64,000 bases of DNA from Parasutterella excrementihominis YIT 11859 (GTDB lineage Bacteria; Pseudomonadota; Gammaproteobacteria; Burkholderiales; Burkholderiaceae_F). Where the stretch lies: positions 1 to 64,000 of the forward strand of contig NZ_GL883708.1 in assembly GCF_000205025.1 (NCBI RefSeq), written 5' to 3'. A model generated the notes under the pieces. That model did no database searches. It was given only the letters and a program-made list of their open reading frames with translations, and was not told the origin of the DNA. Of this stretch, positions 6,135-54,798 are shown piece by piece; the first letter of the stretch is position 1, and each line of letters begins with the position of its first letter. The translations under genes and the position numbers were made by a program.

Positions 6135-7604
6135 ATGCCGTCTTTTGAAACCGGTGTCCGACTGCTTAAAAATATCCTTATTAAGAAGAGAAGCTATTCC
6201 GCATTCTTTGCGGATGAAACCGACGCGCTCCACAAAGCCTTTCCTGCTAAAGCTACGGTTCATGCAGGACCGTTTGGCATTCCGATGCTTTGGAATTCGG
6301 CTAGAAACTTCCTAGAAAAGAAGTCTTTTGAACCCAGACAAACGGACGGAATTGCTTACGTTCACATTCCTTTCTGTGAAAGCCGGTGCCTTTTCTGCAT
6401 GTTTTATCAGAATCCATATGCTTCGGAAGCAGCAGATGCTTACACGAATACGCTTATAAAAGAGTTTGAGCTCTGGAATCAACGAGCTGCTCAGAATTCT
6501 GCACCGATTAAGGCGTTGTATTTCGGCGGAGGCACACCGACCGCACTTGAGCCTTACAACATTAAAAAGATCCTAGACGCTGTTAGAACGAATCTTCCGC
6601 TCGCCGAAGACTGTGAAATTACCTTCGAGGGCAGACTTCACGGACTAACTGATGAGAAGCTCTCCGCCTGCGTAGAAGGAGGCGTCAACCGACTCTCTAT
6701 AGGAGTTCAGACATTCAACGCCGATATCCGAAAAGAAATGCAGCGCCTCGATTCCCCTGAATATATTATTCGTCGACTCGAGAAAATCTCCGCCATCGAC
6801 AATCTTGCCGTAGTGATCGACCTCCTCTTCGGCTTCCCGGGACAAAAAGGAAAAGTCTGGACAGACGATTTAAAGATCGCTTCCGAGCTTCCTATTGACG
6901 GAGTCGACTGCTACCAGCTGAATGTCTTTGAGAAATCGCCGCTCAACACGCGCATCAAATCCGGTCTTTTTGATCCGGCAGCGACGCTTGCTGAAGCGGC
7001 CGACATGTATGCAGAAAGCGTTGAGCATTTTTCTTCTCATCCAAATTGGCATCGTCTTACCAATACTCATTGGGCCAGAACGCCGCTTGAAAGGAATCTC
7101 TACAACCGTTTAGCAAAAGGTCCGAGTGACTGCCTTCCCTTCGGCTGCGGAGCCGGTGGAAAACTTTTCGGTTACAGCTGGATGCAGGAGCGCAAACTTG
7201 CCAACTGGTCGGAAATGGTTGAGAAAGGACTCAAGCCGGTCTTTGTCATGATGAAACCTCAGGAACACTGGCACTTGATGAGAACTTTGGCGAGCAGCGT
7301 GGAATCCGGCCCCTTCAATTTGAAAGAAATCGGTGACAACTTCAGCGTCGATATTGAAAAGCCGCTAAAACCCGTCATGGATCAATGGATTAAAGCCGGC
7401 CTTCTTGAAAAGTCGGGAGACATCTATTCTCCGACTGTTGCCGGTCAGTTTTGGTATGTGACCATGGCTCAGCTCGCTACGGAAGCGCTGACCATGACCA
7501 TTGCAAAAGAAGATTCTTTCAAAGCGGATCCGATTACGCAAAGCGTATATTCACCCAACCAAGCCGAAGCGTGGTTAAAAACTATCAACAAGCGCAAAGA
7601 ATAA
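6135..7604 (+). CDS. HutW/ChuW-like radical SAM protein (heme-degradation family), paralogue 1
   Basis: A 489-residue radical SAM enzyme of the HemN/ChuW/HutW branch. The iron-sulfur motif CESRCLFC (Cys81, Cys85, Cys88) fits CxxxCxxC, and the SAM-binding GGGTPTALE follows about 45 residues later. The HemN-like C-terminal domain is present. ChuW uses SAM radical chemistry to open heme without oxygen and release iron. The same fold is seen in the second copy at 48423, and the two align along most of their length, so this is a paralogue. It stands outside the main heme operon, followed 88 bases later by a small protein of unknown function. Oxygen-independent coproporphyrinogen oxidase is the main alternative, but the closeness to the HutW copy argues against it. 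A GGAG site precedes the ATG. Confidence 0.8.
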   Translation: MPSFETGVRLLKNILIKKRSYSAFFADETDALHKAFPAKATVHAGPFGIPMLWNSARNFLEKKSFEPRQTDGIAYVHIPFCESRCLFCMFYQNPYASEAADAYTNTLIKEFELWNQRAAQNSAPIKALYFGGGTPTALEPYNIKKILDAVRTNLPLAEDCEITFEGRLHGLTDEKLSACVEGGVNRLSIGVQTFNADIRKEMQRLDSPEYIIRRLEKISAIDNLAVVIDLLFGFPGQKGKVWTDDLKIASELPIDGVDCYQLNVFEKSPLNTRIKSGLFDPAATLAEAADMYAESVEHFSSHPNWHRLTNTHWARTPLERNLYNRLAKGPSDCLPFGCGAGGKLFGYSWMQERKLANWSEMVEKGLKPVFVMMKPQEHWHLMRTLASSVESGPFNLKEIGDNFSVDIEKPLKPVMDQWIKAGLLEKSGDIYSPTVAGQFWYVTMAQLATEALTMTIAKEDSFKADPITQSVYSPNQAEAWLKTINKRKE

Positions 7605-36080: not shown

Positions 36081-36377
36081 ATGAAATTAGTTAAAGTTTT
36101 ACTTCCCCTTGCCGCTGCCGGTTTGATCATGGGCACAGCTTCTGCCCGCGACTACGACGGCTTCTATGGCAAAGTTGAACAGATGCCGGCAACCGGAAAC
36201 GGTGATTGGGTTATCGGCGGTAAGACATTTAAGGCTGACCAACGCACTAAGATCGATCATCGCCGCGATCAGAAGATCGGCGTCGGTTCCTGCGTTAAGG
36301 TTGAAGGCGACATTGACCGTGAGGGTAACTTCTTCGTTTCTGAAATCGAACAGAAACGCGACAATCGCTGCCGTTAA
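36081..36377 (+). CDS. Small secreted OB-fold-like protein (DUF5666-like), copy 1
   Basis: A 98-residue protein with a signal peptide (cut near ASA). The mature part has a short beta-rich pattern: YGKVEQMP, WVIGGKTFKAD, then GSCVKVEGDID and FFVSEIEQK. This is the pattern of the small DUF5666/BOF-type OB folds found in periplasmic proteins. Its neighbour at 36441 is a clear paralogue. A GGAG-type site (AATAGGAG) precedes the ATG. Function unknown; perhaps envelope stress or metal binding, which I cannot show. Confidence 0.75.
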   Translation: MKLVKVLLPLAAAGLIMGTASARDYDGFYGKVEQMPATGNGDWVIGGKTFKADQRTKIDHRRDQKIGVGSCVKVEGDIDREGNFFVSEIEQKRDNRCR

Positions 36378-36415: not shown

Positions 36416-36440
36416 TTTGTCCGATTTTTTTGAAAACCAA

Positions 36441-36734
36441 ATGAAAAAATTTCTTCTTGCTTTAGCCGCTCTGAGTTTCTCTTTGTCCGCTTTCGCTGCC
36501 GGGGACGATGATGCTTTTTACGGAAAAATTGAAAAGATGCCCTCAGCACAAAATCCGACTTGGGTTATCGGAGGCAAGACTTTCAAAGCTGACGCTCGTA
36601 CAAAGGTTGAGAGCCACGGCGGCCACAAATTTGACGTAGGCGCCTGCGTCAAAGTAGAAGGTGATATTGATCACCGCGGTGAATTTTTTATTTCCGAGAT
36701 GGAAATCAAAAATGAGACCCGCTGCCATAAATAA
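36441..36734 (+). CDS. Small secreted OB-fold-like protein (DUF5666-like), copy 2
   Basis: A 97-residue paralogue of the preceding gene with its own signal peptide (MKKFLLALAALSFSLSAFA). The mature part shares WVIGGKTFKAD, a GACVKVEGDID segment and FFISEMEIK with copy 1. The start at 36441 is chosen because the signal peptide starts there; the ribosome site is poor (GAAAACC), so expression may be low or coupled to copy 1. Likely a tandem duplication. Confidence 0.72.
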   Translation: MKKFLLALAALSFSLSAFAAGDDDAFYGKIEKMPSAQNPTWVIGGKTFKADARTKVESHGGHKFDVGACVKVEGDIDHRGEFFISEMEIKNETRCHK

Positions 36735-40643: not shown

Positions 40644-41456
40644 TTAATCAAGACTGTACCGAATCGGAACCTGGATCTTCATCCCAGCATTAGGAACATT
40701 AAAAGCCGTCCCGATGATTCGATTGCTTAACTCCTGAGAGGCTGAGTCCAAGGGACCGTTGCCCGATTTCTTAATGACTGAGGCGCCGGTAACTTTACCG
40801 CTTGAGTCGACCGTAAATTCCACTAAAACGACGCCTTCCATTCCCGCCCTTCTCGCTGCTTTCGGATAACGCTTGTGTTTTTCAACCAAACTCACAAGCA
40901 TTGCAGTGATGCTTTTCCTTTTAGGTGCCTGCTCTGCAACAGCATGCGAGGCCGCCTTCGCTTCAGCAGATTCAGAAGCTTTTTGAAGCGCGGGTTCTCC
41001 CTTTTCTGCCTTAGGTTCTTTTGGCTTCTTAGCCGGTTTCGGCTTCTCTAAAGCTTTAGGCTTAGGTTTCTCCGGGTCAGCCTTCTTCGGTTTGGACTGC
41101 TCAGCGGGTACGGGCGCCGGAGGTACCGGTTTTGCTTCAGATTCAGGAAGCTTTTCTTCTACAACCTTTTCAGGTTCGACTTTAAATTCCGATTCATCTG
41201 TGAGAAGTTTTTTGGGTTCTTCGATGACCGGTTGTGGTTGAGGTTCCGGCCGGACTTCCGGTGCTTCTTCCGGTTGAATATCCTGAATCTGAGAAAAACT
41301 CAGTTCTATCGTCCGTGGCTGCTGAGAAGACTGCGGGACATCTGTTTTTAAGGTGCACCCTGCCCAAGCGAACGCGCAGGCAAAGGCAGCCAAAGCAGCT
41401 TTGGAGAGCCGCTTGGCTTTAAGTAATTCATTGTCTTTGCGTGAAGGGCTAAACAT
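40644..41456 (-). CDS. tonB: TonB energy transducer
   Basis: A 270-residue TonB protein. A single hydrophobic segment near the N-terminus (about residues 18-34) is followed by a long Pro/Lys/Glu-rich spacer and a C-terminal TonB domain from about KHKRYPKAARRAGMEGVVLVEFTV. It hands proton-motive energy to the outer-membrane receptor at 46342. The membrane segment ends FAWAGC and has no histidine of the usual SxxxH motif, which is unusual for a TonB. First start at 41456 is one base after the exbD stop, so tonB and exbD are tightly coupled. Confidence 0.88.
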   Translation of the reverse strand: MFSPSRKDNELLKAKRLSKAALAAFACAFAWAGCTLKTDVPQSSQQPRTIELSFSQIQDIQPEEAPEVRPEPQPQPVIEEPKKLLTDESEFKVEPEKVVEEKLPESEAKPVPPAPVPAEQSKPKKADPEKPKPKALEKPKPAKKPKEPKAEKGEPALQKASESAEAKAASHAVAEQAPKRKSITAMLVSLVEKHKRYPKAARRAGMEGVVLVEFTVDSSGKVTGASVIKKSGNGPLDSASQELSNRIIGTAFNVPNAGMKIQVPIRYSLD

Positions 41457-41457
41457 C

Positions 41458-41850
41458 TTAATTCTGCGGTACAGATGCTTTGGTACTGATTACGAAACGG
41501 CCTTCCCTATTTACTTTTGCAAGATCGGCCAAGTAAACAAAAGCCTCAAACGGAGCCTTCTCATCAACCATCAGGTTGAGCGAGCCTTCCGGATGCTCGG
41601 AGAGAAAACGAGGAAGATCTTCCTTGAGGATCTCTTGATCATTAAAGAAATACTTTCCGTCAGGCTTCACACTAATCACGAGTTCGGCAGACTTTTTCTT
41701 GACCTCGGAGTTCTGGGCCGCAGGCAATACGACGTCCAGCACGGGTTTGCTGAATGTCATGGTCATCACAAAAAAGATGACCAGCATGAAAATTACGTCT
41801 ATGAGCGGCGTCAAATCCACCCGAGGCTCTTCTTCGAGTTCGTCAAACAT
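41458..41850 (-). CDS. exbD: ExbD biopolymer transport protein
   Basis: A 130-residue protein with one N-terminal membrane segment: VDLTPLIDVIFMLVIFFVMT, where the Asp in PLIDVIF is the conserved proton-carrying residue. The rest is periplasmic. With ExbB it forms the proton-driven motor for TonB. It sits between exbB and tonB. Confidence 0.93.
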   Translation of the reverse strand: MFDELEEEPRVDLTPLIDVIFMLVIFFVMTMTFSKPVLDVVLPAAQNSEVKKKSAELVISVKPDGKYFFNDQEILKEDLPRFLSEHPEGSLNLMVDEKAPFEAFVYLADLAKVNREGRFVISTKASVPQN

Positions 41851-41866
41851 ATCTTTGTCTCAAGTC

Positions 41867-42508
41867 TCAGGCCGCTTTTTGCTCAATTTCTTCCAAGTTC
41901 TGAGCACAGCGGCAAGGTTCTCGGCGGATATTTAAAGCTCGATAACTGTACTCCACAGCTTCAATTCGAAGCTCTTTAACCTTGAGCATCAGGTAGTAAT
42001 AAGCCATCAAAGCCGGAATTGCGACAACCAAGCCCATCACAGTCGTAATTAAAGCGGTCCAGATGCCGCCCGCAAGCATTGTCGGATCGGGAGAAACATT
42101 TTCAGAGATTGTGCGGAAAACTGTCACCATGCCAATGACCGTACCTAAAAGACCCAGCAGCGGGGAAACTGCTGAGATTAACTTGAGCCAGGTCAATGCA
42201 TTGTTCACAGGCTTGAAGTGCTTATGGAACAGGTAAGCGACTTCTGCACGAATGTCGTCGGAATGCGCGCCATGTGTCATAACGATGTCTCGCACAATGC
42301 ATTCCAGCGGATTAGTGCTCTCTCCGAAATATCGGCGAATGCGTTCCGGCGTCACTTTGTCCATTCCGCGGAAATGCTGTTTAAACTTGGAGAGGACCCC
42401 TCTTAGATAAAGAAAGTTCCATACGGTAATGTACAAGGCAAAGATGCCGATTACAACTAGAGCGATACCGGCGCACCCGATCAGGCTGTAAATCTCTTTA
42501 ATTTCCAT
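41867..42508 (-). CDS. exbB: ExbB biopolymer transport protein (MotA/TolQ/ExbB)
   Basis: A 213-residue inner-membrane protein with the ExbB layout: one membrane segment near the N-terminus, a cytoplasmic loop, then two segments around LKLISAVSPLLGLLGTVIGMV and LITTVMGLVVAIPALMAYY. Family motif LLGLLGTVIGM is intact. Starts 2 bases after the flavodoxin stop and is followed by exbD 16 bases on. Confidence 0.93.
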   Translation of the reverse strand: MEIKEIYSLIGCAGIALVVIGIFALYITVWNFLYLRGVLSKFKQHFRGMDKVTPERIRRYFGESTNPLECIVRDIVMTHGAHSDDIRAEVAYLFHKHFKPVNNALTWLKLISAVSPLLGLLGTVIGMVTVFRTISENVSPDPTMLAGGIWTALITTVMGLVVAIPALMAYYYLMLKVKELRIEAVEYSYRALNIRREPCRCAQNLEEIEQKAA

Positions 42509-42510
42509 GT

Positions 42511-43017
42511 TTATTTATCATTCCGGAAGTTTTTAAGAAGCTCCAAAGCCCATGCTCCTGCCTGAGCCTGATCTTCGGCCGTCGGATGTTTGGCGGCTTC
42601 ATCCAATCGTGCCTGGCGCTCCGGCGTCATCGGTTTGGCTCCGGGCATCTTCGCCATAGCAGCCAAGATCTTCGGATCGATCTTGCCCTGCCAAACACGA
42701 AGACCCTTGAAGTTCTCGCACGGGAAAAGACCGGCCACTTTATTCACCCAGGCTTGTCCGCGCTCGCTGTTGGGATCACCTCCCATGGTTCCGAAGTATG
42801 CGATCGGTCTTGCTTTGGCGTCTTTCTGGAAGGCCTGCCAGACTTCATCCGGAGTTCCCTTATCGCACCAGAAACCGGCAAAGATGAAGTCGTAATCCTG
42901 AGGATTAAGATCAGCGGGCAGTTTTTTGAGATCGGCGCCGGGAATTGCGGAAGCAATGGCGCGGGCAATGATCTCAGTGTTTCCGGTAACGGTGGCGTAT
43001 GCAACTAAAACTTTCAT
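42511..43017 (-). CDS. Flavodoxin-family protein of the heme locus
   Basis: A 168-residue flavodoxin. The FMN phosphate loop is AYATVTGNTEIIARAIA near the N-terminus (the T/S-x-T-G-N-T pattern), and FAGFWCDKGTPDE and YFGTMGGDPNSE are the other flavin-binding loops. The ATG at 43017 follows GAGAGGAAG. It lies between exbB and hutX, 13 bases from hutX. Anaerobic heme opening by ChuW/HutW needs reducing electrons, and a flavodoxin beside hutX and hutW is a good candidate donor. Not shown for this gene. Confidence 0.85.
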   Translation of the reverse strand: MKVLVAYATVTGNTEIIARAIASAIPGADLKKLPADLNPQDYDFIFAGFWCDKGTPDEVWQAFQKDAKARPIAYFGTMGGDPNSERGQAWVNKVAGLFPCENFKGLRVWQGKIDPKILAAMAKMPGAKPMTPERQARLDEAAKHPTAEDQAQAGAWALELLKNFRNDK

Positions 43018-43030
43018 TCTCTTCCTCTCA

Positions 43031-43540
43031 TTAAGCTTTGTACTTCTGCTGGAGGGCAAGGAATTTTTCTTTGGCGCTTTCAATTAACTTGTGTTTTTCG
43101 CGGCCGACGTACATGGAGTAAGCAACTTCGCCGGAAGTTGTAAAGAAAGCGGCGAAGTGGCTTTCACGGCCCATGAACGGCATCGTCACAAAGCCGATCT
43201 CGGAAATGTCGCCGTACTTAAAGTGACCTTGAAGCGGGCTCTTGCCTCCCATCAGATTGTAGTAGCCCATCGCTGCTTTGCCTGTCACGAGTTTGGTTTC
43301 AACTTCGATGACGTTGCCGTGTGCAGTCACGATGAAAGTAATTTTTTCCCATTCGGCGATCGCGGCCCAAACGCTTTCAAAATCGGAACCCGGAGCAAAG
43401 GTGGCGGAACCTTCCGGCAGAAGATGAGCCGCTTCCTGCGCTGTCACGGAGAGCGCCTGGGCAATCGTCTCCAATGTTACGGGACGGCCGCTGTTTAAAA
43501 GTTCATTAATTTTGTTCTGCTGTTCAACGATTGTTGTCAT
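43031..43540 (-). CDS. hutX: HutX/ChuX-type heme carrier protein
   Basis: A 169-residue cytoplasmic heme-binding protein. Features of HutX/ChuX: GHFKYGDISEIGFVTMPFMGRESHFAAFFTTSGEVAYSMYVGRE-like C-terminal half with its conserved His and the FVTMPFMG segment. It receives heme after import and passes it on to the degrading enzyme. In Vibrio it passes heme to HutZ; here the degrading enzyme would be HutW. Next to the flavodoxin and behind the ECF genes in one operon. Confidence 0.88.
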   Translation of the reverse strand: MTTIVEQQNKINELLNSGRPVTLETIAQALSVTAQEAAHLLPEGSATFAPGSDFESVWAAIAEWEKITFIVTAHGNVIEVETKLVTGKAAMGYYNLMGGKSPLQGHFKYGDISEIGFVTMPFMGRESHFAAFFTTSGEVAYSMYVGREKHKLIESAKEKFLALQQKYKA

Positions 43541-43556
43541 AGGTTTACCGGTTAAT

Positions 43557-44978
43557 TTATTGAAAAGTTGCTGAAAGATTTGTTTTTTGAAGCGGGAGTC
43601 TGATGGCGCTGTCGCACACCATGTCCACTAGCTCCAGGTCATGAGTAATGACAAGCACGGCTTTGCCTTCGTCAGAAAGCTGCCTCAGGGCGCCGGCAAT
43701 TCGATGAAGATTTGCGCCGTCTAAGCCGCTTGTCGGTTCATCCAAAATGATGACATCCGGTTTTTTGGCAAACGCGCAGGCAATCACTAGCCTTTGCTGC
43801 TGGCCGCCGGAAAGGGAATGCGGATGGCGGTCTCTGAGTTCTGTCAGATCAAAAAGCTGCAGCAGCTCCTCGGCGGCTTGCTGACCCCCTCGGCAGCCTG
43901 CAGCTTCCAGACTTGTCAGAAGCTCATCAAAAACCGTCCGCATATACAGCTGATGGTCTGCGTTCTGGAGGACCACTGCAACATGCTTAAGGCATTCCTG
44001 AGGTTTGACCTTCTTGCCTCTTATTTCTAGTGTCCCTTGGGCTGGTTTATTTAAACCTGTGAGAATCCGGGCCAAAGTCGTTTTGCCGGTACCGTTCGGG
44101 CCGAAAAGCCCTGTTATACCTTTGCGCAGTTCCAAGTCGGTGCCGTTAAAAATCTTCGGCTTTCTCGAGTAAGCAAACGAAAGATCCGAGACCTTCATTA
44201 CGGTTTCTTTGCCCTGGGACAACGACGGAAGTTCGTGTCTTTTATCTTCGACATCGACTTTTCTCAATCCGTAGCGTTCTCGGACTTCGTCGCTAAGATC
44301 ATCAAAAGTGCCCTCCTGGACGATTCTTCCTTTTTCCATCACGCAGACGCGGTCAGCCACGTCTTTTAACCAGTACAAGCGATGGTCGACAATCAGGACG
44401 GCAACGCCCTTCTCTTTTAACCGCAGAATCTCCTCGGCCAAATCCATCGTAGATTCCGGATCGAGGTTTCCTGTCGGTTCATCCAGAATCAGCACCTGCA
44501 GCGGTTCCATCATTAAGGAAGCCAGACCGACCTTCTGTTTTTGTCCCTGAGAAAGTTCGTGGATCGTATTTTTTAAAACGGAATTCAGACCGAAACGCTG
44601 AGAAGTTTTAGCAATGAGCTCTCGGATTTTATCGGGAGGCATTCCTCGAGATTCGGGTTTGAATGCCATCTCTTCTTCTACACCGAGCGCAAAAAACTGC
44701 GTTTCAGGGTTTTGGAACAACGTACCGACTCGGGTGCTGATTTCATGCAGTTTGAGTTTTTGGTTGTCTTGACCTGCAACATGAACGGTTCCTTGAAGTT
44801 CTCCTCCGAAATAATGCGGGCAAAGACCGTTAATCAGACGGATTAAGGTAGATTTGCCGCACCCGGAGACACCCGTGCAAAGCACTGCTTCACCGGGACG
44901 AACCTTCAAAGAAATATCTTCAAGCGCGTTTCTGTCAGAGAACGGATAACGATAAGTGACGTTTTTCAGTTCAATCAT
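43557..44978 (-). CDS. ECF-type importer ATPase (two ABC domains fused)
   Basis: A 473-residue protein with two complete ABC domains, that is, EcfA1 and EcfA2 joined. Domain 1: Walker A TGVSGCGKST, signature LSQGQKQKVG, Walker B LILDEPTGNLDP. Domain 2: Walker A FGPNGTGKTT, signature [10 protein letters not shown], Walker B IILDEPTSGLDG. Energises the T and S components that follow upstream. It overlaps the T gene by 4 bases. ECF importers normally take vitamins, metals or heme; here heme or its precursor is suggested by the surrounding hut genes. Confidence 0.93.
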   Translation of the reverse strand: MIELKNVTYRYPFSDRNALEDISLKVRPGEAVLCTGVSGCGKSTLIRLINGLCPHYFGGELQGTVHVAGQDNQKLKLHEISTRVGTLFQNPETQFFALGVEEEMAFKPESRGMPPDKIRELIAKTSQRFGLNSVLKNTIHELSQGQKQKVGLASLMMEPLQVLILDEPTGNLDPESTMDLAEEILRLKEKGVAVLIVDHRLYWLKDVADRVCVMEKGRIVQEGTFDDLSDEVRERYGLRKVDVEDKRHELPSLSQGKETVMKVSDLSFAYSRKPKIFNGTDLELRKGITGLFGPNGTGKTTLARILTGLNKPAQGTLEIRGKKVKPQECLKHVAVVLQNADHQLYMRTVFDELLTSLEAAGCRGGQQAAEELLQLFDLTELRDRHPHSLSGGQQQRLVIACAFAKKPDVIILDEPTSGLDGANLHRIAGALRQLSDEGKAVLVITHDLELVDMVCDSAIRLPLQKTNLSATFQ

Positions 44979-45745
44979 CTCATTGCCGCCTTAATGTCGG
45001 TAGGAAAGTAAATTTGAAGTAAAACCGCCCCCGTACAGATTAAGAGAACAAGGGTAATGGCTGCGATGTCATGCTTCCCGAATCTCCTTCTGTGCATAGA
45101 ACCCGAATTACTCCCGGCATGAAGACCTTTGAGTTCAGCTGCAATGCCCAACTCGTCGCTGGTTTTGAGCGCTCTGAAGAGAAGCGGCGTAAACAAAAGA
45201 CGCGTCGTACGAATCGGATGAATCGTGCACTGCCATGGATTGATCTTGAAACCTCTTATCTTCAAAGACTCCCAGATCTGCTTCACATCGCCGGCAAACG
45301 TCGGAATAAAACGAATAATCACAGCGGCCGGAAGATAAATAATGAACGGAAGCTTCAGCTGCTGAAGACCGTTAAGAATATTCTGTAGTCTTCCAGTAAA
45401 AGCCATCGGCAAAATCGTGTTCATCACTGTCAGGGCTCTCAGGAACGGAATACACAGAGAACTCAGTTCCAGACTTTTACCCATGGAAGGAATGAACAAA
45501 GCCAACACAGAGGCAAATCCCACGGACAGCGCCATCATCAGAAGCGAGGCAGCATAGCTCACAAAAATTAGTTTGTATCGACCGAGCGCAAATAGATAAA
45601 GCAGCGACGTTGTAAAAAGCAGCAGCTGCGAATTCAGAGAAGAAAGCGCAATCGTCATCACAGCCGCTAATGCGGCAATGAGCATTTTGCTGCGGACATC
45701 CAGCCGCGTTAAAACATCAAACTTAGAAGCGGACGATGCCTGCAT
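44975..45745 (-). CDS. ECF-type importer transmembrane coupling protein (EcfT)
   Basis: A 256-residue membrane protein of the EcfT/CbiQ family. N-terminal DVLTRLDVRSKMLIAALAAVMTIALSS and later coupling helices KQIWESLKIRGFK and ALKTSDELGIAAELKG are typical: the latter carries an A-R-G/A-L-K-like motif that touches the ATPases. It overlaps the S gene by 23 bases and the ATPase gene by 4. Confidence 0.9.
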   Translation of the reverse strand: MQASSASKFDVLTRLDVRSKMLIAALAAVMTIALSSLNSQLLLFTTSLLYLFALGRYKLIFVSYAASLLMMALSVGFASVLALFIPSMGKSLELSSLCIPFLRALTVMNTILPMAFTGRLQNILNGLQQLKLPFIIYLPAAVIIRFIPTFAGDVKQIWESLKIRGFKINPWQCTIHPIRTTRLLFTPLLFRALKTSDELGIAAELKGLHAGSNSGSMHRRRFGKHDIAAITLVLLICTGAVLLQIYFPTDIKAAMR

Positions 45746-46307
45746 GTCTTAACTCCTTCATAGAACGGCAGCCCGTGTAAAGACCGAGCAAAGAACCGGC
45801 ATAGCCGATTAAAACGATCGGAAGAACTACTGCCATCAAAGCGGGAGATTCGCGCATCATGAGATAGGAAACTGCAAGAGACAATCCTTTGGAAAGGAAG
45901 TCAAAGCAGCCGACACCCCAGAACACGGCACCTTTCCAGCCGAGGCTTTTAACGAACTTCATCACGACTTCGGAGACAAGTGCAGCCGCCAGCATCGGAG
46001 GAATAAGTGTGACGTTTCCGCCCAAAAGCAGGAAGTTCACCAGCGCGCTCACGATTACAAAGAGAGTCAGAGTTCCCGGCTGTCTAACTTTGTAAAGCAT
46101 GATCACAAGCAATGTAGTGAACACCACATTTTTAAGCAGAAGGCTGACCGGATTCATTCCTCCGCCCACCATAGCGATTAAAACCGTGGAGAGTTTTGCG
46201 GTTGCGGCAAAAACCCCGATCACCACAAGGTCACGAGCACCCCAGCGGTCACCGAACCTTCTGAGCCAAGACTGCCCCTCCTTTCTCTCCAATACCATTT
46301 CCGTCAT
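45723..46307 (-). CDS. ECF-type importer substrate-binding component (MptS/Trep_Strep type)
   Basis: A 194-residue protein with about six membrane segments and a basic, soluble N-terminus (MTEMVLERKEGQSWLRR). The ARDLVVIGVFAATAK start of the first segment fits the Trep_Strep/MptS family of S components. The substrate is not known for this family with certainty; here its genes lie in a heme operon between the receptor and hutX. It is 35 bases after the receptor gene. Confidence 0.78.
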   Translation of the reverse strand: MTEMVLERKEGQSWLRRFGDRWGARDLVVIGVFAATAKLSTVLIAMVGGGMNPVSLLLKNVVFTTLLVIMLYKVRQPGTLTLFVIVSALVNFLLLGGNVTLIPPMLAAALVSEVVMKFVKSLGWKGAVFWGVGCFDFLSKGLSLAVSYLMMRESPALMAVVLPIVLIGYAGSLLGLYTGCRSMKELRHAGIVRF

Positions 46308-46341
46308 GTTGATTTCCGTTGAAATGAATCCGTATTACTTC

Positions 46342-48426
46342 TTAGAACTTAGCGCTCAGCTTGAAGTTGAAGTGCCGTCCCGGTTCGTAGATCGAATCGC
46401 CGTAGGAATAAAGTTGATTGGTAATGTTGATAGCCTCAGCACTGACCATGTAGCGCTTCTGAGGGCCGAAATGATAAGTTGTCGCAAAGTTAAGCGTTGT
46501 ATAACCGGCAACGCGGGTCGTCTCATTACTGGATGGCGAATAAGACTTTGACGCGGTCTTGCTTCTGAGGTAGGTATCCGTATTCCAACGACCGTTAAAG
46601 ACATCGAACTCAGTCTTCACGCCATAACGAGCCGTGAAACCTGCGACGCCCGAATCATAGGTCGAGACTCCGCTGCCCCACTCTGTTTTTCTGCGCAGCC
46701 AAGTCATGCTGGCATAGGGGAAGAAGTGGTCCGTCGGCTTAAAGTTCACAGAGAGCTCCGCACCGAAAGTCTTGGCCTTATCAGCGTTCAGATAGGTATA
46801 CTCAGTTTTGCTTATATGCACGGAGGAAATATAGTCGTCTGCAAGGTTGTAGAACAAAGCAAAGTCTGCCTCTAGAGCATTTCCTGCATAACGGGCTCCA
46901 ACCTCAAAGTTGTTTGATTTCTCAGGCTTAAGGTCTGCGTTGCCGAATGTCGTACCACCGCCCATACTGTTAATAAGGTATTTTTCCTGGAGGTTAGGAA
47001 CACGGAAGCCTTGAGACCAGCCCGCTCTCAGCGAGGTATCCGGCATTCCCGTCCAGTTCAGGCTCAGGTTAAAGACGGGACGGCTGTTTTTATCGCTGCC
47101 GACTTTACCCACCTTGTCGTCCGGAGCATTAACATATTTAACTCTGCCCATTCCCGCATAACCGTTTTTGACCCCGACAGCTTTGCTCAGCTTGGAATCA
47201 ACCCATGTATATCGAACGCCATAATTAAGCGTGAAATCCATCGGCAAAGTTGTTTCCATGGATGCAAAAATCGCATTGGTTGTTTCTTTGCCCTTTACAT
47301 AACGGTTTGTCACGGTATTGAGCATCGGCGCCATGGTTGTCTTGGCCAAGGTATCAGCTTCCAACTGATCCTGAACAAACTCGTAACCAGTAATCAGGAA
47401 ATTCGATTCTCCCAGCTGCCAGTCAGCCTGAAGACTTGTTCCGTAAGATTTGATTCGGTTATCGGCGTGAGAATCGGTAACAACTTTCATGGGGCCTTGT
47501 GGCTGAGAAACATAATTTCTCATGTTCTTATGGTTCTTCTGCCAATAGCCGTCCCAACGCAGACGGGTCAGGTATTCATTAAGGTTCTTGCCTTCTGCAA
47601 AGAGTGCAACCTTGTCTCGCTTCCACTTCGGAATGCGAACAAAGAACTCGCTGTTCGGGTCTTGTTCGTATTCCCAGCTAGAGGAATTGATGTCGCTGTC
47701 AAAAGTATCCGCACGCAGACCGGCTGTGAAATGCTCATTGAAGTCATAGCTCAGGAAAGCAGAAGCATTCTTCTGACGGAAGTCAGTGCCTTTTTGATAT
47801 CCCAGCGGCGTCTTGATGTTGCCGTGACTCTGATAACCGGCGTCCAAATGGTAATTTAAACCTTTATAGGTTCCGCCGAGAGAAATCGTTTCTGCCCAAC
47901 CGTGACCGGCGCCGTTCCAAGCAACAGAACCCTCAGCTTCAAAAGGTTTCTTAGATCCTTTTTTTGTGATGATATTTACCACACCCCCTAAAGCGTCAGA
48001 ACCGTAAAGCACGGAGGCCGGTCCTTTGATCACTTCAATGCGTTCAATGGAGCTCGGATCGATAAGAATCGAAGCGCCGGACATGGATTTCTGTTCGGAA
48101 ATCTTCTGGCCATCAATGAGAGTCAGGGTTCTGAAGGTATCTTCCCCGCGGATGGAAACGCGCTTTAAGCCTTGAGAACCGGCGTTATTAACCATAACCC
48201 CCGGAATGTCTTCCAGGAGTTCTCCGACATTGCGGGCGGATGATTCCTGGATTTCCTGATTGGTCACAACCGTGACAGCCATCGGAACTTCGAGAAGCTG
48301 CTGTTCAACGCGGCTTGCGGTTACCGTCACTTCAGAGGTTTGAACGGTTTCTTCTGCCTGAACGGCCAGTGCGCACAAGGTTAAAGCAGCTGCGGCCGAC
48401 AATTTAAAAGTCAATTTAGTGGTCAT
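46342..48426 (-). CDS. TonB-dependent outer-membrane receptor (heme/iron type)
   Basis: A 694-residue receptor. The signal peptide ends near AVQAE, followed by a TonB box-like TSEVTVTAS. The plug domain (VPMAVTVVTNQEIQES, GVMVNNAGS, SIRGEDTF, VEVIKGPASVLYGSDALGGVVNIIT-like pattern) and the barrel ending in KLSAKF are complete. The start at 48426 overlaps the hutW stop by the ATGA junction; the longer frame is inside hutW. Given its neighbours, heme is the likely ligand, though I cannot see a decisive His pair. Confidence 0.88.
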   Translation of the reverse strand: MTTKLTFKLSAAAALTLCALAVQAEETVQTSEVTVTASRVEQQLLEVPMAVTVVTNQEIQESSARNVGELLEDIPGVMVNNAGSQGLKRVSIRGEDTFRTLTLIDGQKISEQKSMSGASILIDPSSIERIEVIKGPASVLYGSDALGGVVNIITKKGSKKPFEAEGSVAWNGAGHGWAETISLGGTYKGLNYHLDAGYQSHGNIKTPLGYQKGTDFRQKNASAFLSYDFNEHFTAGLRADTFDSDINSSSWEYEQDPNSEFFVRIPKWKRDKVALFAEGKNLNEYLTRLRWDGYWQKNHKNMRNYVSQPQGPMKVVTDSHADNRIKSYGTSLQADWQLGESNFLITGYEFVQDQLEADTLAKTTMAPMLNTVTNRYVKGKETTNAIFASMETTLPMDFTLNYGVRYTWVDSKLSKAVGVKNGYAGMGRVKYVNAPDDKVGKVGSDKNSRPVFNLSLNWTGMPDTSLRAGWSQGFRVPNLQEKYLINSMGGGTTFGNADLKPEKSNNFEVGARYAGNALEADFALFYNLADDYISSVHISKTEYTYLNADKAKTFGAELSVNFKPTDHFFPYASMTWLRRKTEWGSGVSTYDSGVAGFTARYGVKTEFDVFNGRWNTDTYLRSKTASKSYSPSSNETTRVAGYTTLNFATTYHFGPQKRYMVSAEAINITNQLYSYGDSIYEPGRHFNFKLSAKF

Positions 48427-49775
48427 TTTGTCTGAGATTTGAAGTAGTCGAGGAGATGCTGAGTCATACGGCCTTGCCAAAATTGGCCGGAAACCGTAAG
48501 TTCAAAACGGTTTCCGACGGGGGCAAGGAGCCCTGCTTCAGTCCAGTTATCGATCAATGGATTCCACAAAGTTGCAAACTTCTCAGAAAACTCGTGAGCC
48601 AGTTGGGAAGGGTTAAAGAAATTCAATTCAAGCTGCTCAGCGACCGCACGTCCCAGTTCCCAGAACAGAGGCGGTTTGGTCATCATGGCAATTGGTTTGA
48701 CACCGCTTTCGACAGCCTTGGCCCAAGCATCCGGCTGACGGTGCTGCATGAAGCCGTAACCGCTTAAGTTGCCGCCGGCGCCGGGACCGAAAGCTAAACA
48801 ATCGGTACGGGTCTTTGCGTAGTAGTTATAAAAATTTCGTTCACGGGTGTTTGAAGCCCAATGGGAGATGGAAAGGCGCTTCCAGCCTGCTTCATGCATG
48901 CTTTGCACGGCTTCCTGGAACATCGCAGCGCGAAGTTCATGATCCGGTCCGGGAGGAAGTTTGCCGTTCTGAATATATTTATAAAGAGGAGACTTCTCAA
49001 ACACGCGGAGCTGGTAGCAGTCGATGCCGTCAAGGTTAAGCTCTCGGCCAATTCGTAAGTCTTCTTTCCAAGTTTCCAAGGTCTGGAACGGAAAACCGTA
49101 AATCAAATCAATCACGACAGCTGCCTGATCATAGCTCATCAGTTTCTCGAGCTGACGAATCAAGGTTTCCTTATCTGAGCGGCGGCCGACAGCCTGACGA
49201 ATCTTCGTATCAAAACTCTGGACCCCCAGAGAGAAACGGTTGGCGCCCCCGGCCAAAGCGGCTTCCATTTTGTCAGTTCCAAAACCGGACAAACGCCCTT
49301 CATAAGTGATTTCGCAGTCATTGGCGAGCGGAAGATAGCGGCGAACGGCTTTGATGATTCTTTCAATATCACAGGCTTCCAAAGCAGTAGGCGTACCGCC
49401 GCCGAAATATACAGCGTGTACGGGCTCACCCTTTTGCACCGGTTTGTCTGACCAAAGCTGAAGTTCTTTGATTAAAGTATCGGCAAAAGCCTTGCTTTCT
49501 TCTTTGTTTCGATACGGCTTGATATAGAACAAGCAATACAAGCAGCGAGTTTCGCAGTAGGGAACGTTGATATAGGCAACCGTTCGGCGTGTACGAGGTT
49601 TAGAAACGAGTTCGGAAAGCACCTCCGGCATTTCCGTAGGCAGGAGCATGGAGCTGTCCATCCCCGGATGGATATCAATCTTTTCCGGAAAAGCTTCGAC
49701 AATCGGATTCTGAGAAACTTTGGCCAGCCAACGACTGATGTCGTCCGGCACTCTTCTCTGGAAAGCATTAAACAT
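48423..49775 (-). CDS. hutW: Anaerobic heme-degrading radical SAM protein HutW/ChuW
   Basis: A radical SAM enzyme that opens the heme ring without oxygen. Cluster motif CETRCLYC gives CxxxCxxC; SAM motif GGGTPTALE and a HemN-like C-terminal domain follow. GAGAAAG lies 8 bases before the ATG at 49775 (MFNAFQRRVP), so I take 450 residues. An ATG at 49814 has no ribosome site. First gene of the heme operon, behind a perfect Fur-box dyad. It overlaps the receptor gene by 4 bases. Its paralogue is at 6135. Confidence 0.88.
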   Translation of the reverse strand: MFNAFQRRVPDDISRWLAKVSQNPIVEAFPEKIDIHPGMDSSMLLPTEMPEVLSELVSKPRTRRTVAYINVPYCETRCLYCLFYIKPYRNKEESKAFADTLIKELQLWSDKPVQKGEPVHAVYFGGGTPTALEACDIERIIKAVRRYLPLANDCEITYEGRLSGFGTDKMEAALAGGANRFSLGVQSFDTKIRQAVGRRSDKETLIRQLEKLMSYDQAAVVIDLIYGFPFQTLETWKEDLRIGRELNLDGIDCYQLRVFEKSPLYKYIQNGKLPPGPDHELRAAMFQEAVQSMHEAGWKRLSISHWASNTRERNFYNYYAKTRTDCLAFGPGAGGNLSGYGFMQHRQPDAWAKAVESGVKPIAMMTKPPLFWELGRAVAEQLELNFFNPSQLAHEFSEKFATLWNPLIDNWTEAGLLAPVGNRFELTVSGQFWQGRMTQHLLDYFKSQTK

Positions 49776-49832
49776 CGGGACTGCTTTCTCTCGGTCAGTG
49801 TGTTGTGCTTGCATAATGCTAAAATATCGTAT

Positions 49833-49847
49833 TGATAATGATTATCA
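49833..49847. promoter_or_regulatory. Fur box upstream of the heme operon
   Basis: TGATAAT-G-ATTATCA is a perfect 7-1-7 dyad, the known Fur consensus. It lies about 60 bases before hutW and 200 before the divergent ABC genes, so iron should repress the heme operon and maybe both. Confidence 0.85.
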
Positions 49848-49882
49848 TTTGAATAAATTTAGCGCTAAGACAATTTTAATAC

Positions 49883-53001: not shown

Positions 53002-54798
53002 ATGAAAAAACTTTTACTCACTTCTGCCCTTCTAGCCGCACTTCCTTTGGTTGTCCAAGCTTCTGATGTCACTTTTAGAGCTGGGACTTATGAGGCTTCT
53101 GCCGATGGAATTCACGGCCCCGTTGTAGTCAAAACAACCTTTTCAGAGCATAAAATCGATTCCATTCGGATCGTTAAGCAAACGGAAACCGAAGGAATTG
53201 GCACTGTAGCAGCTTCCGAGCTTCCGAAAAAGATTCTTAATGCGCAGTCAACTAAGATCAACGGCATTGCAGGAGCTTCGATAACTTCCAAGGCTATTTT
53301 CTCTGCGGTAAATAAATGCATTGAACAAGCAGGCGTAAAGCCCGACCAACTCATCCCGGTAATCACTAAAAAACAAACCAAAGAAGAAAAATTGTCAGCA
53401 GATATGGTTGTTGTCGGAGGAGGCGGATCCGGAATGGCTGCTACGATCGAAGGCAGAATGAGGGGATTAAAAGTAGTCCTCGTTGAAAAAATGCCTTACA
53501 TCGGCGGAGCTGCCGCGATTTCGGGAGGCCAAGTCGTTGCTCAGGGATCAAAACTTCAGAAACAATTTGGTTCAACCAAAGACAGTCCGGAATCCATGAT
53601 GAAGGACTTCCTTGCCAACGGGCATAATCTTAATGACAAACGCATGCTGTCTTTGTACGCCCATAATGTTGGACAAACAATCGATTGGCTGCATGACAAA
53701 GTCGGAGTGAAATTCATTCCAAATGATTTGCCTTATCTTGCGGAGTATTCGCATCGACGCGCGCTGGAATTCCAAGGGGGAGCCAAGACGATGGCTCAGC
53801 ACCTTAAGAAAGTGATCAGCGAGAACGGTGCCAATGTTCTTTACAACACACGTGTACAAAAACTTTTGACAGACGACAAAGGAAATGTCACAGGGGTGCG
53901 CGCTGTCGATAATAATGGCGTGACTTACACTATCACTTCAAAGGCCACTCTGCTGACAACCGGCGGATTCGGAAATAACAAAGAAATGCTTTCCGAACCG
54001 GTCAAGAGTGCCCTGTACTATGGGCCTGTCTCTTCAACCGGCGACGGACATCAAATGGCCTTGTCTTTAGGCGCTAAGACCCAGCTGATGCAGTATGGAA
54101 AACGTTATCCAAACGGTATCGAAGTCTCTCCCGGAAAAGCAAAATCCACGATTTATGCCAACGTCGGTGCCTTCGACCACTCAGGAATCCTAGTAGACGT
54201 TAACGGGAAGCGATTTGTCAATGAAAAAGCGAGCAATCGCCATATCTTGGACCCGATGATGGAAACCTCCAACAAACAGGCCTACGTATTTATGGATGAA
54301 GGCTCTTGGAAAGGTTTTTACAAACGCCTTCCCGAAACAGGTGTTTCCCACGAAGACGCTGATAAGTATTTAGCACAAGACGGAAAGTCGTCTCCTCTCT
54401 TTGTTAAAGGCGCTACGCTCGAACAAGCTGCTAAGAAAGCGGGGATCAATGCTGAAAATCTTGCTAAGACCGTTGCTCGTTACAACGAATTCGTAAAAAC
54501 CAAGAAAGACGCTGACTTTAACCGTCCCCTCCAATACATGAAGAGCGAAATCTCTTCTCACGGACCTTATTACATCGTAGAGCAGAAACCTAGATTCGCT
54601 ACTACGATGGGCGGCTTAGTCACTAACGATAAACTCAATGTCGTTCGCAAGGATGGCAGTACGATCGGAAATCTATACGCTGCCGGTGAATTGGTCGGGG
54701 GCACAATGGGAGATGATTCTCCTGCCGGTGCCAATGTCGGTTGGGCATTAACCAGCGGTAAATTTGCAGCAGACCGTATTGCTGATCAAATTAAATAA
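53002..54798 (+). CDS. Exported FMN-binding/FAD flavoprotein reductase (UrdA/fumarate reductase type)
   Basis: A 598-residue exported reductase. The Sec signal peptide is cut near VVQA. An FMN-binding domain (about residues 24-105) carries GIAGASITS, in which Thr95 is the likely covalent FMN site made by ApbE; ApbE is not in this window. The FAD domain begins at ADMVVVGGGGSGMAA (about residue 135). The catalytic C-terminal loop reads GGTMGDDSPAGANVGW, without the substrate-binding NRxGG arginine of fumarate reductase, so the acceptor is probably not a C4 dicarboxylate. The same two-domain layout is found in urocanate and other enoate reductases. It converges with a two-component operon. Confidence 0.9.
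   Translation: MKKLLLTSALLAALPLVVQASDVTFRAGTYEASADGIHGPVVVKTTFSEHKIDSIRIVKQTETEGIGTVAASELPKKILNAQSTKINGIAGASITSKAIFSAVNKCIEQAGVKPDQLIPVITKKQTKEEKLSADMVVVGGGGSGMAATIEGRMRGLKVVLVEKMPYIGGAAAISGGQVVAQGSKLQKQFGSTKDSPESMMKDFLANGHNLNDKRMLSLYAHNVGQTIDWLHDKVGVKFIPNDLPYLAEYSHRRALEFQGGAKTMAQHLKKVISENGANVLYNTRVQKLLTDDKGNVTGVRAVDNNGVTYTITSKATLLTTGGFGNNKEMLSEPVKSALYYGPVSSTGDGHQMALSLGAKTQLMQYGKRYPNGIEVSPGKAKSTIYANVGAFDHSGILVDVNGKRFVNEKASNRHILDPMMETSNKQAYVFMDEGSWKGFYKRLPETGVSHEDADKYLAQDGKSSPLFVKGATLEQAAKKAGINAENLAKTVARYNEFVKTKKDADFNRPLQYMKSEISSHGPYYIVEQKPRFATTMGGLVTNDKLNVVRKDGSTIGNLYAAGELVGGTMGDDSPAGANVGWALTSGKFAADRIADQIK

Follow-up and report, generated by a model that had tools for sequence, protein, structure and literature searches.

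How heme crosses the inner membrane is the question raised by a ten-gene operon of Parasutterella excrementihominis YIT 11859, in which the genes of an energy-coupling factor (ECF) transporter stand among those for heme uptake and degradation. The window analysed here is the whole stretch of 64,000 nucleotides at positions 1 to 64,000 of contig NZ_GL883708.1. Gram-negative heme importers of the standard model combine a FecCD permease and a periplasmic binding protein, and ECF-type importers are mainly known as carriers of vitamins and trace metals; a heme ECF system has reportedly been described in Lactobacillus sakei. It is very likely that the operon serves heme uptake and anaerobic heme degradation, with the ECF transporter performing the inner-membrane step.

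The operon is located on the minus strand, running from 49814 to 40644 in the order hutW, receptor, S component, ecfT, ecfA, hutX, flavodoxin, exbB, exbD and tonB, and it is compact, adjacent genes overlapping or lying 1–34 nucleotides apart, so that all ten are likely to share a single transcript. An earlier note on this DNA, made from the sequence alone, had assigned TonB, ExbBD, a receptor, HutX, HutW and a flavodoxin to a heme operon, and profile searches confirm that all ten genes are present; hutW and hutX both exceed their curated cut-offs, as befits an operon for anaerobic heme degradation (HutW/ChuW). EcfT (PF02361), the ECF ATPase (TIGR04520) and the S component (PF09605) are encoded in one overlapping gene set, the ATPase being indeed fused, as the note had read it, since TIGR04520 matches over two stretches and both halves show readable Walker A, Walker B and signature motifs. 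Neither a FecCD permease nor a periplasmic binding protein was recognised among the ten genes by profile scores, the lack of the latter being expected for an ECF importer. The gene order is conserved across Sutterellaceae, and the presence of the ECF genes in the heme operon is therefore not due to chance. A Fur-box-like site situated ~20 nucleotides upstream of hutW is the sole match with three or fewer mismatches to GATAATGATAATCATTATC in the 64 kb (0.01 expected) and has counterparts upstream in 14 relatives, no clear Fur box having been seen upstream of HutW in the loci from Kiritimatiellota, Lentisphaerota and Verrucomicrobiota; the operon may thus be iron-regulated, within a heme locus, as expected of a heme ECF transporter like LhaSTA of Staphylococcus lugdunensis. 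By analogy with HmuF, the flavodoxin is a possible heme carrier or anaerobilin reductase.

Concerning the distribution of the S component, a non-exhaustive, short-pattern scan covering 84,980 species genomes yielded 56 named loci, covering Sutterellaceae, Desulfovibrionaceae, Deferribacterales, other deltaproteobacterial groups, Kiritimatiellota, Lentisphaerota and Verrucomicrobiota. Of these, 49 carry hutW; five of the seven exceptions are on contigs that are short or truncated (L088, L097, L103, L119, L129), the other two (L080 and L092, i.e. genomes G008 and G013, which were inspected directly) being taken as real. Among 67 Sutterellaceae genomes, with HutW counted above its cut-off, both proteins occur in 19, the S component alone in three, HutW alone in three and neither in 42 (p=8e-11); the comparison of Sutterellaceae hut loci that the earlier note had proposed thus gives co-occurrence in 19/22. 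The corresponding numbers for 247 Desulfovibrionaceae genomes are 32 with both, two and two with one only and 211 with neither (p=1.8e-35), the S component lying within 6 kb of HutW in 30/33. It should be noted that these p values assume independent genomes, an assumption that relatives violate, and the recurrence in separate phyla weighs more. As to the Sutterellaceae with HutW alone, HutW was found without hut neighbours in the stretch read in G017 and G035, the latter on a 3-kb contig, and in G056 (L159:3348-5824) a receptor frame of only ~200 residues comes next and the stretch read contains no ECF genes, suggesting a broken operon. The Kiritimatiellota-type loci (L107 to L115, L118, L130) exhibit the order HutW–S–EcfT and, where the contig extends far enough, EcfA and in many cases a flavodoxin, with no receptor, HutX or TonB genes recognised in the stretches covered; those of the Opitutales/Verrucomicrobia also carry a receptor, ExbB and ExbD.

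FecCD was found in none of the 56 ECF loci. The placing of an ECF set in the HutBCD position of a Gram-negative heme locus, with which the earlier note had begun, is upheld by this absence and by the linkage to hutW in several phyla; its statement that the ECF set is the only inner-membrane importer holds within the operon but not for the genome, where one FecBCD set lies elsewhere. In a sample of 398 Pseudomonadota, the window's genome was the only one with a match to the S profile, and HutW scored above its cut-off in 14 genomes including that one; eight of the 13 other HutW loci contain FecCD, and none contains an S component or EcfT. At the level of whole genomes, FecCD was undetected in eight of the 33 with an ECF locus—one Mailhella, four from Kiritimatiellota/Lentisphaerota/Verrucomicrobiota and three of the Opitutales type (3/3 tested)—these being mostly metagenome-assembled genomes (MAGs) and possibly incomplete. 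Based on the linkage to hutW, the FecCD-free ECF loci and the eight genomes in which FecCD was undetected, ECF-mediated heme import appears to be the best explanation, and such import across the inner membrane is probably widespread in anaerobic Gram-negative bacteria of several phyla.

In the evolutionary tree of HutW, the ECF and FecCD labels are strongly clustered, yet FecCD-linked and ECF-linked sequences interleave, the ECF label needing four changes; the order of the deep nodes is uncertain because of long branches. The ECF-linked HutW do not form one clade, so a single simple replacement of FecCD by ECF is unsupported, and the scattered occurrence in distant phyla points to some gene transfer. 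The window itself encodes a second HutW (6135-7604, plus strand; 470.7 bits, above the cut-off), which has no hut neighbours and groups with other solo HutW of Sutterellaceae. The HutW of Turicimonas muris (L026:6390-7811) is interrupted by an in-frame TGA, which may reflect a sequencing error or decay.

The S component is, judged by a weak but significant profile match, a distant relative of the Trep_Strep/MptD family (PF09605, TIGR02185). Of the MptS/Trep_Strep affiliation claimed earlier, the second half stands on this match, and the MptS label is loose, the kinship being only distant and the conserved positions differing from those of a stronger member. The structure predicted by AlphaFold2 from a 49-row alignment (predicted local distance difference test score 83.6) contains six membrane helices and a short N-terminal helix; its best match among solved structures in Foldseek is the ECF S component 5edl (probability 1.00, template modelling score 0.60, E-value 6e-3), followed by TmRibU. 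Because these E-values are weak (6e-3 and up), the predicted fold supports the assignment to the S-component class without proving it; a profile search using the S alignment matched no solved structure. Residues G49, G50, N52, P53, R152, E153 and H188 are invariant in the 49 sequences. With sidedness derived from the helix order and the N terminus assumed to be inside, the GGG(M)NP motif and the R152-E153 pair are predicted to occupy periplasm-facing loops and H188 to be cytoplasmic. A stronger Trep_Strep member (84.7 bits), from a Desulfovibrio MAG, has WGAMDP and KE, and is without the GGGMNP, R152 and RHAG features; since it lacks most of the signature, the latter marks a subfamily. It is likely, although less so than the role of the ECF set in this one operon, that the distinct S subfamily represents a class of TonB-coupled heme importers in Gram-negative bacteria, replacing HutBCD in anaerobes of several phyla and disseminated, in part, by gene transfer along with HutW.

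According to the mechanism proposed, the TonB-dependent receptor, energised by TonB-ExbBD of the same operon, would take heme into the periplasm, where the S component would capture it within the membrane, a periplasmic binding protein being unneeded. EcfT and the fused EcfA would then use ATP to release the heme into the cytoplasm, from where HutX and/or the flavodoxin may carry it to HutW, which would open the ring and free the iron.

Several observations weigh against heme import by the ECF set. The best NCBIfam models for the receptor are heme types, with scores below the heme-receptor cut-offs. The motif GGG(M)NP, conserved as it is, has M51 replaced by P in four Opitutales-type rows and by L in two others. 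No conserved histidine was found on the predicted periplasmic side of the 49 S sequences, in contrast to LhaS, the spectra of which suggest ligation of heme by histidine (PMC7299338). Three Sutterellaceae genomes (L039, L032 and L044) retain S, EcfT and EcfA without a nearby HutW, and the FecBCD set of the window's genome could also carry heme. In L044, a near-copy of EcfA is seen past an intervening open reading frame on the opposite strand. Heme auxotrophy of the genomes having S, EcfT and EcfA without HutW was considered and set aside, the search for HemB being non-discriminating, as HemB is nearly universal in Sutterellaceae.

Characterised ECF transporters mostly carry vitamins or metals (PMC7299338), and the set might thus import a cofactor or vitamin for the heme-degrading enzymes, such as cobalamin or a flavin precursor for the flavodoxin, heme crossing the membrane otherwise. 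The Kiritimatiellota locus, reduced to HutW, S, T, A and flavodoxin, would suit this explanation; it is nevertheless improbable, since a general vitamin importer would not be expected to show a nearly 1:1 correspondence with HutW in two families, and the lack of FecCD from the same loci, the failure to detect it in eight whole genomes and the Fur-box-like site upstream in many loci speak against it. The only other EcfT of the window's genome is encoded together with a CbiM-type gene and an ATPase of its own, and this second set fits a nickel/cobalt importer. The substrate could alternatively be a tetrapyrrole other than intact heme, e.g. a different porphyrin or a product of heme breakdown, as the enzymes of the locus act on tetrapyrroles and the S component is without a conserved periplasmic histidine ligand; the Fur-box-like site and the heme-type receptor point rather to iron supply, and with HemB present in the genome the scavenging of porphyrins for synthesis seems unneeded, which leaves this alternative slightly more doubtful still.

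The least probable of the alternatives assigns heme import mainly to the FecBCD set elsewhere in the window's genome (G000:C4:132215-133159 and neighbours; L002:6731-10362), the ECF set being auxiliary. This FecBCD set is complete, its binding protein is similar to those for iron complexes, and LhaSTA of S. lugdunensis does coexist with IsdEFL (PMC7299338). The gene after this set is, however, one for a methyltransferase, no heme gene was recognised in the vicinity, several ECF–HutW genomes showed no FecCD, and across Sutterellaceae FecCD occurs in 21/22 HutW-positive and 37/45 HutW-negative genomes, so that with p=0.25 it is not detectably tied to heme degradation.

Table 1 Features of the heme operon in the window, with the profile evidence for each
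Feature	Position	Strand	Evidence
hutW, radical S-adenosylmethionine (SAM) anaerobic heme-degrading methyltransferase	48423..49814	-	TIGR04107 488 bits, cut-off 400; alternative start 49775
TonB-dependent outer-membrane receptor, heme/hemoglobin type	46342..48426	-	Plug and barrel domains; TonB-hemin 213 bits, TonB-hemlactrns 211 bits, both below cut-off
ECF S component, proposed membrane heme receptor	45723..46307	-	PF09605 Trep_Strep 31.4 bits, cut-off 28.7
ecfT, ECF transmembrane scaffold	44975..45745	-	PF02361, 62 bits
ecfA1A2, fused double ECF ATPase	43557..44978	-	TIGR04520 316 bits over two stretches, cut-off 315
hutX, cytosolic heme carrier	43031..43540	-	TIGR04108 142.7 bits, cut-off 110
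Flavodoxin, Flavodoxin_3/BilS type	42511..43014	-	PF12641 102.9 bits; BilS model 70 bits, cut-off 155
exbB/tolQ-type proton channel	41867..42508	-	PF01618
exbD	41458..41850	-	PF02472
tonB	40644..41456	-	PF03544
Fur-box-like site upstream of hutW	49834..49852		16/19 match to GATAATGATAATCATTATC

Outside the operon, the window encodes on the plus strand a tandem pair of similar small secreted-looking proteins (36081-36377 and 36417-36734), the first of which matches DUF5666, and a fumarate-reductase-like protein (53002-54798) with FMN-binding and FAD-binding parts and a signal-peptide-like start.

Among the known systems, the Gram-positive precedent for ECF heme uptake to which the earlier note had alluded is LhaSTA, the first ECF system reported to acquire iron, in which LhaS binds heme and the whole transporter imports it into S. 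lugdunensis (PMC7299338). The two resemble each other in having S, T and A genes in a heme locus with a Fur box and an S component acting, or proposed to act, as a membrane heme receptor without a binding protein (PMC7299338). LhaSTA, however, belongs to a Gram-positive bacterium, with a conventional heme importer alongside and neither a TonB receptor nor HutW, whereas the present operon is Gram-negative and TonB-coupled, encodes a fused double ATPase and has no FecCD. It occupies the same place in the pathway as HutBCD, HmuTUV and ChuTUV, i.e. beside TonB-ExbBD, HutW and HutX, but instead of the FecCD-type permease and periplasmic binding protein it has S, EcfT and EcfA. With HmuTRUVWF of Fusobacterium nucleatum it shares an anaerobic heme degradation enzyme and a flavodoxin, HmuF of that system binding heme, handing it to HmuW and reducing anaerobilin (PMC10404700); the Fusobacterium operon carries hmuTUV where an ECF set is found here. 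No published ECF heme importer of a Gram-negative bacterium was found, by a search that lacked most subscription journals and is hence weak evidence. Co-mentions of 'ECF' and 'anaerobilin' were discarded, since in the texts consulted they referred to a sigma factor or to names of proteins from E. coli. HtsTUV is mentioned in one comparative paper, with no substrate given in the passage concerned. ECF import of heme is itself known; a TonB-coupled heme ECF transporter tied to anaerobic heme degradation appears to be undescribed in the literature searched.

If the ECF set carries heme, many gut anaerobes—Sutterella and Desulfovibrionaceae among them—would gain heme iron by an overlooked route that is free of a binding protein and would be missed by annotation searching for HmuTUV. 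The subfamily would at the same time offer a large and defined set of S components for studying the binding of a large tetrapyrrole by an ECF transporter.
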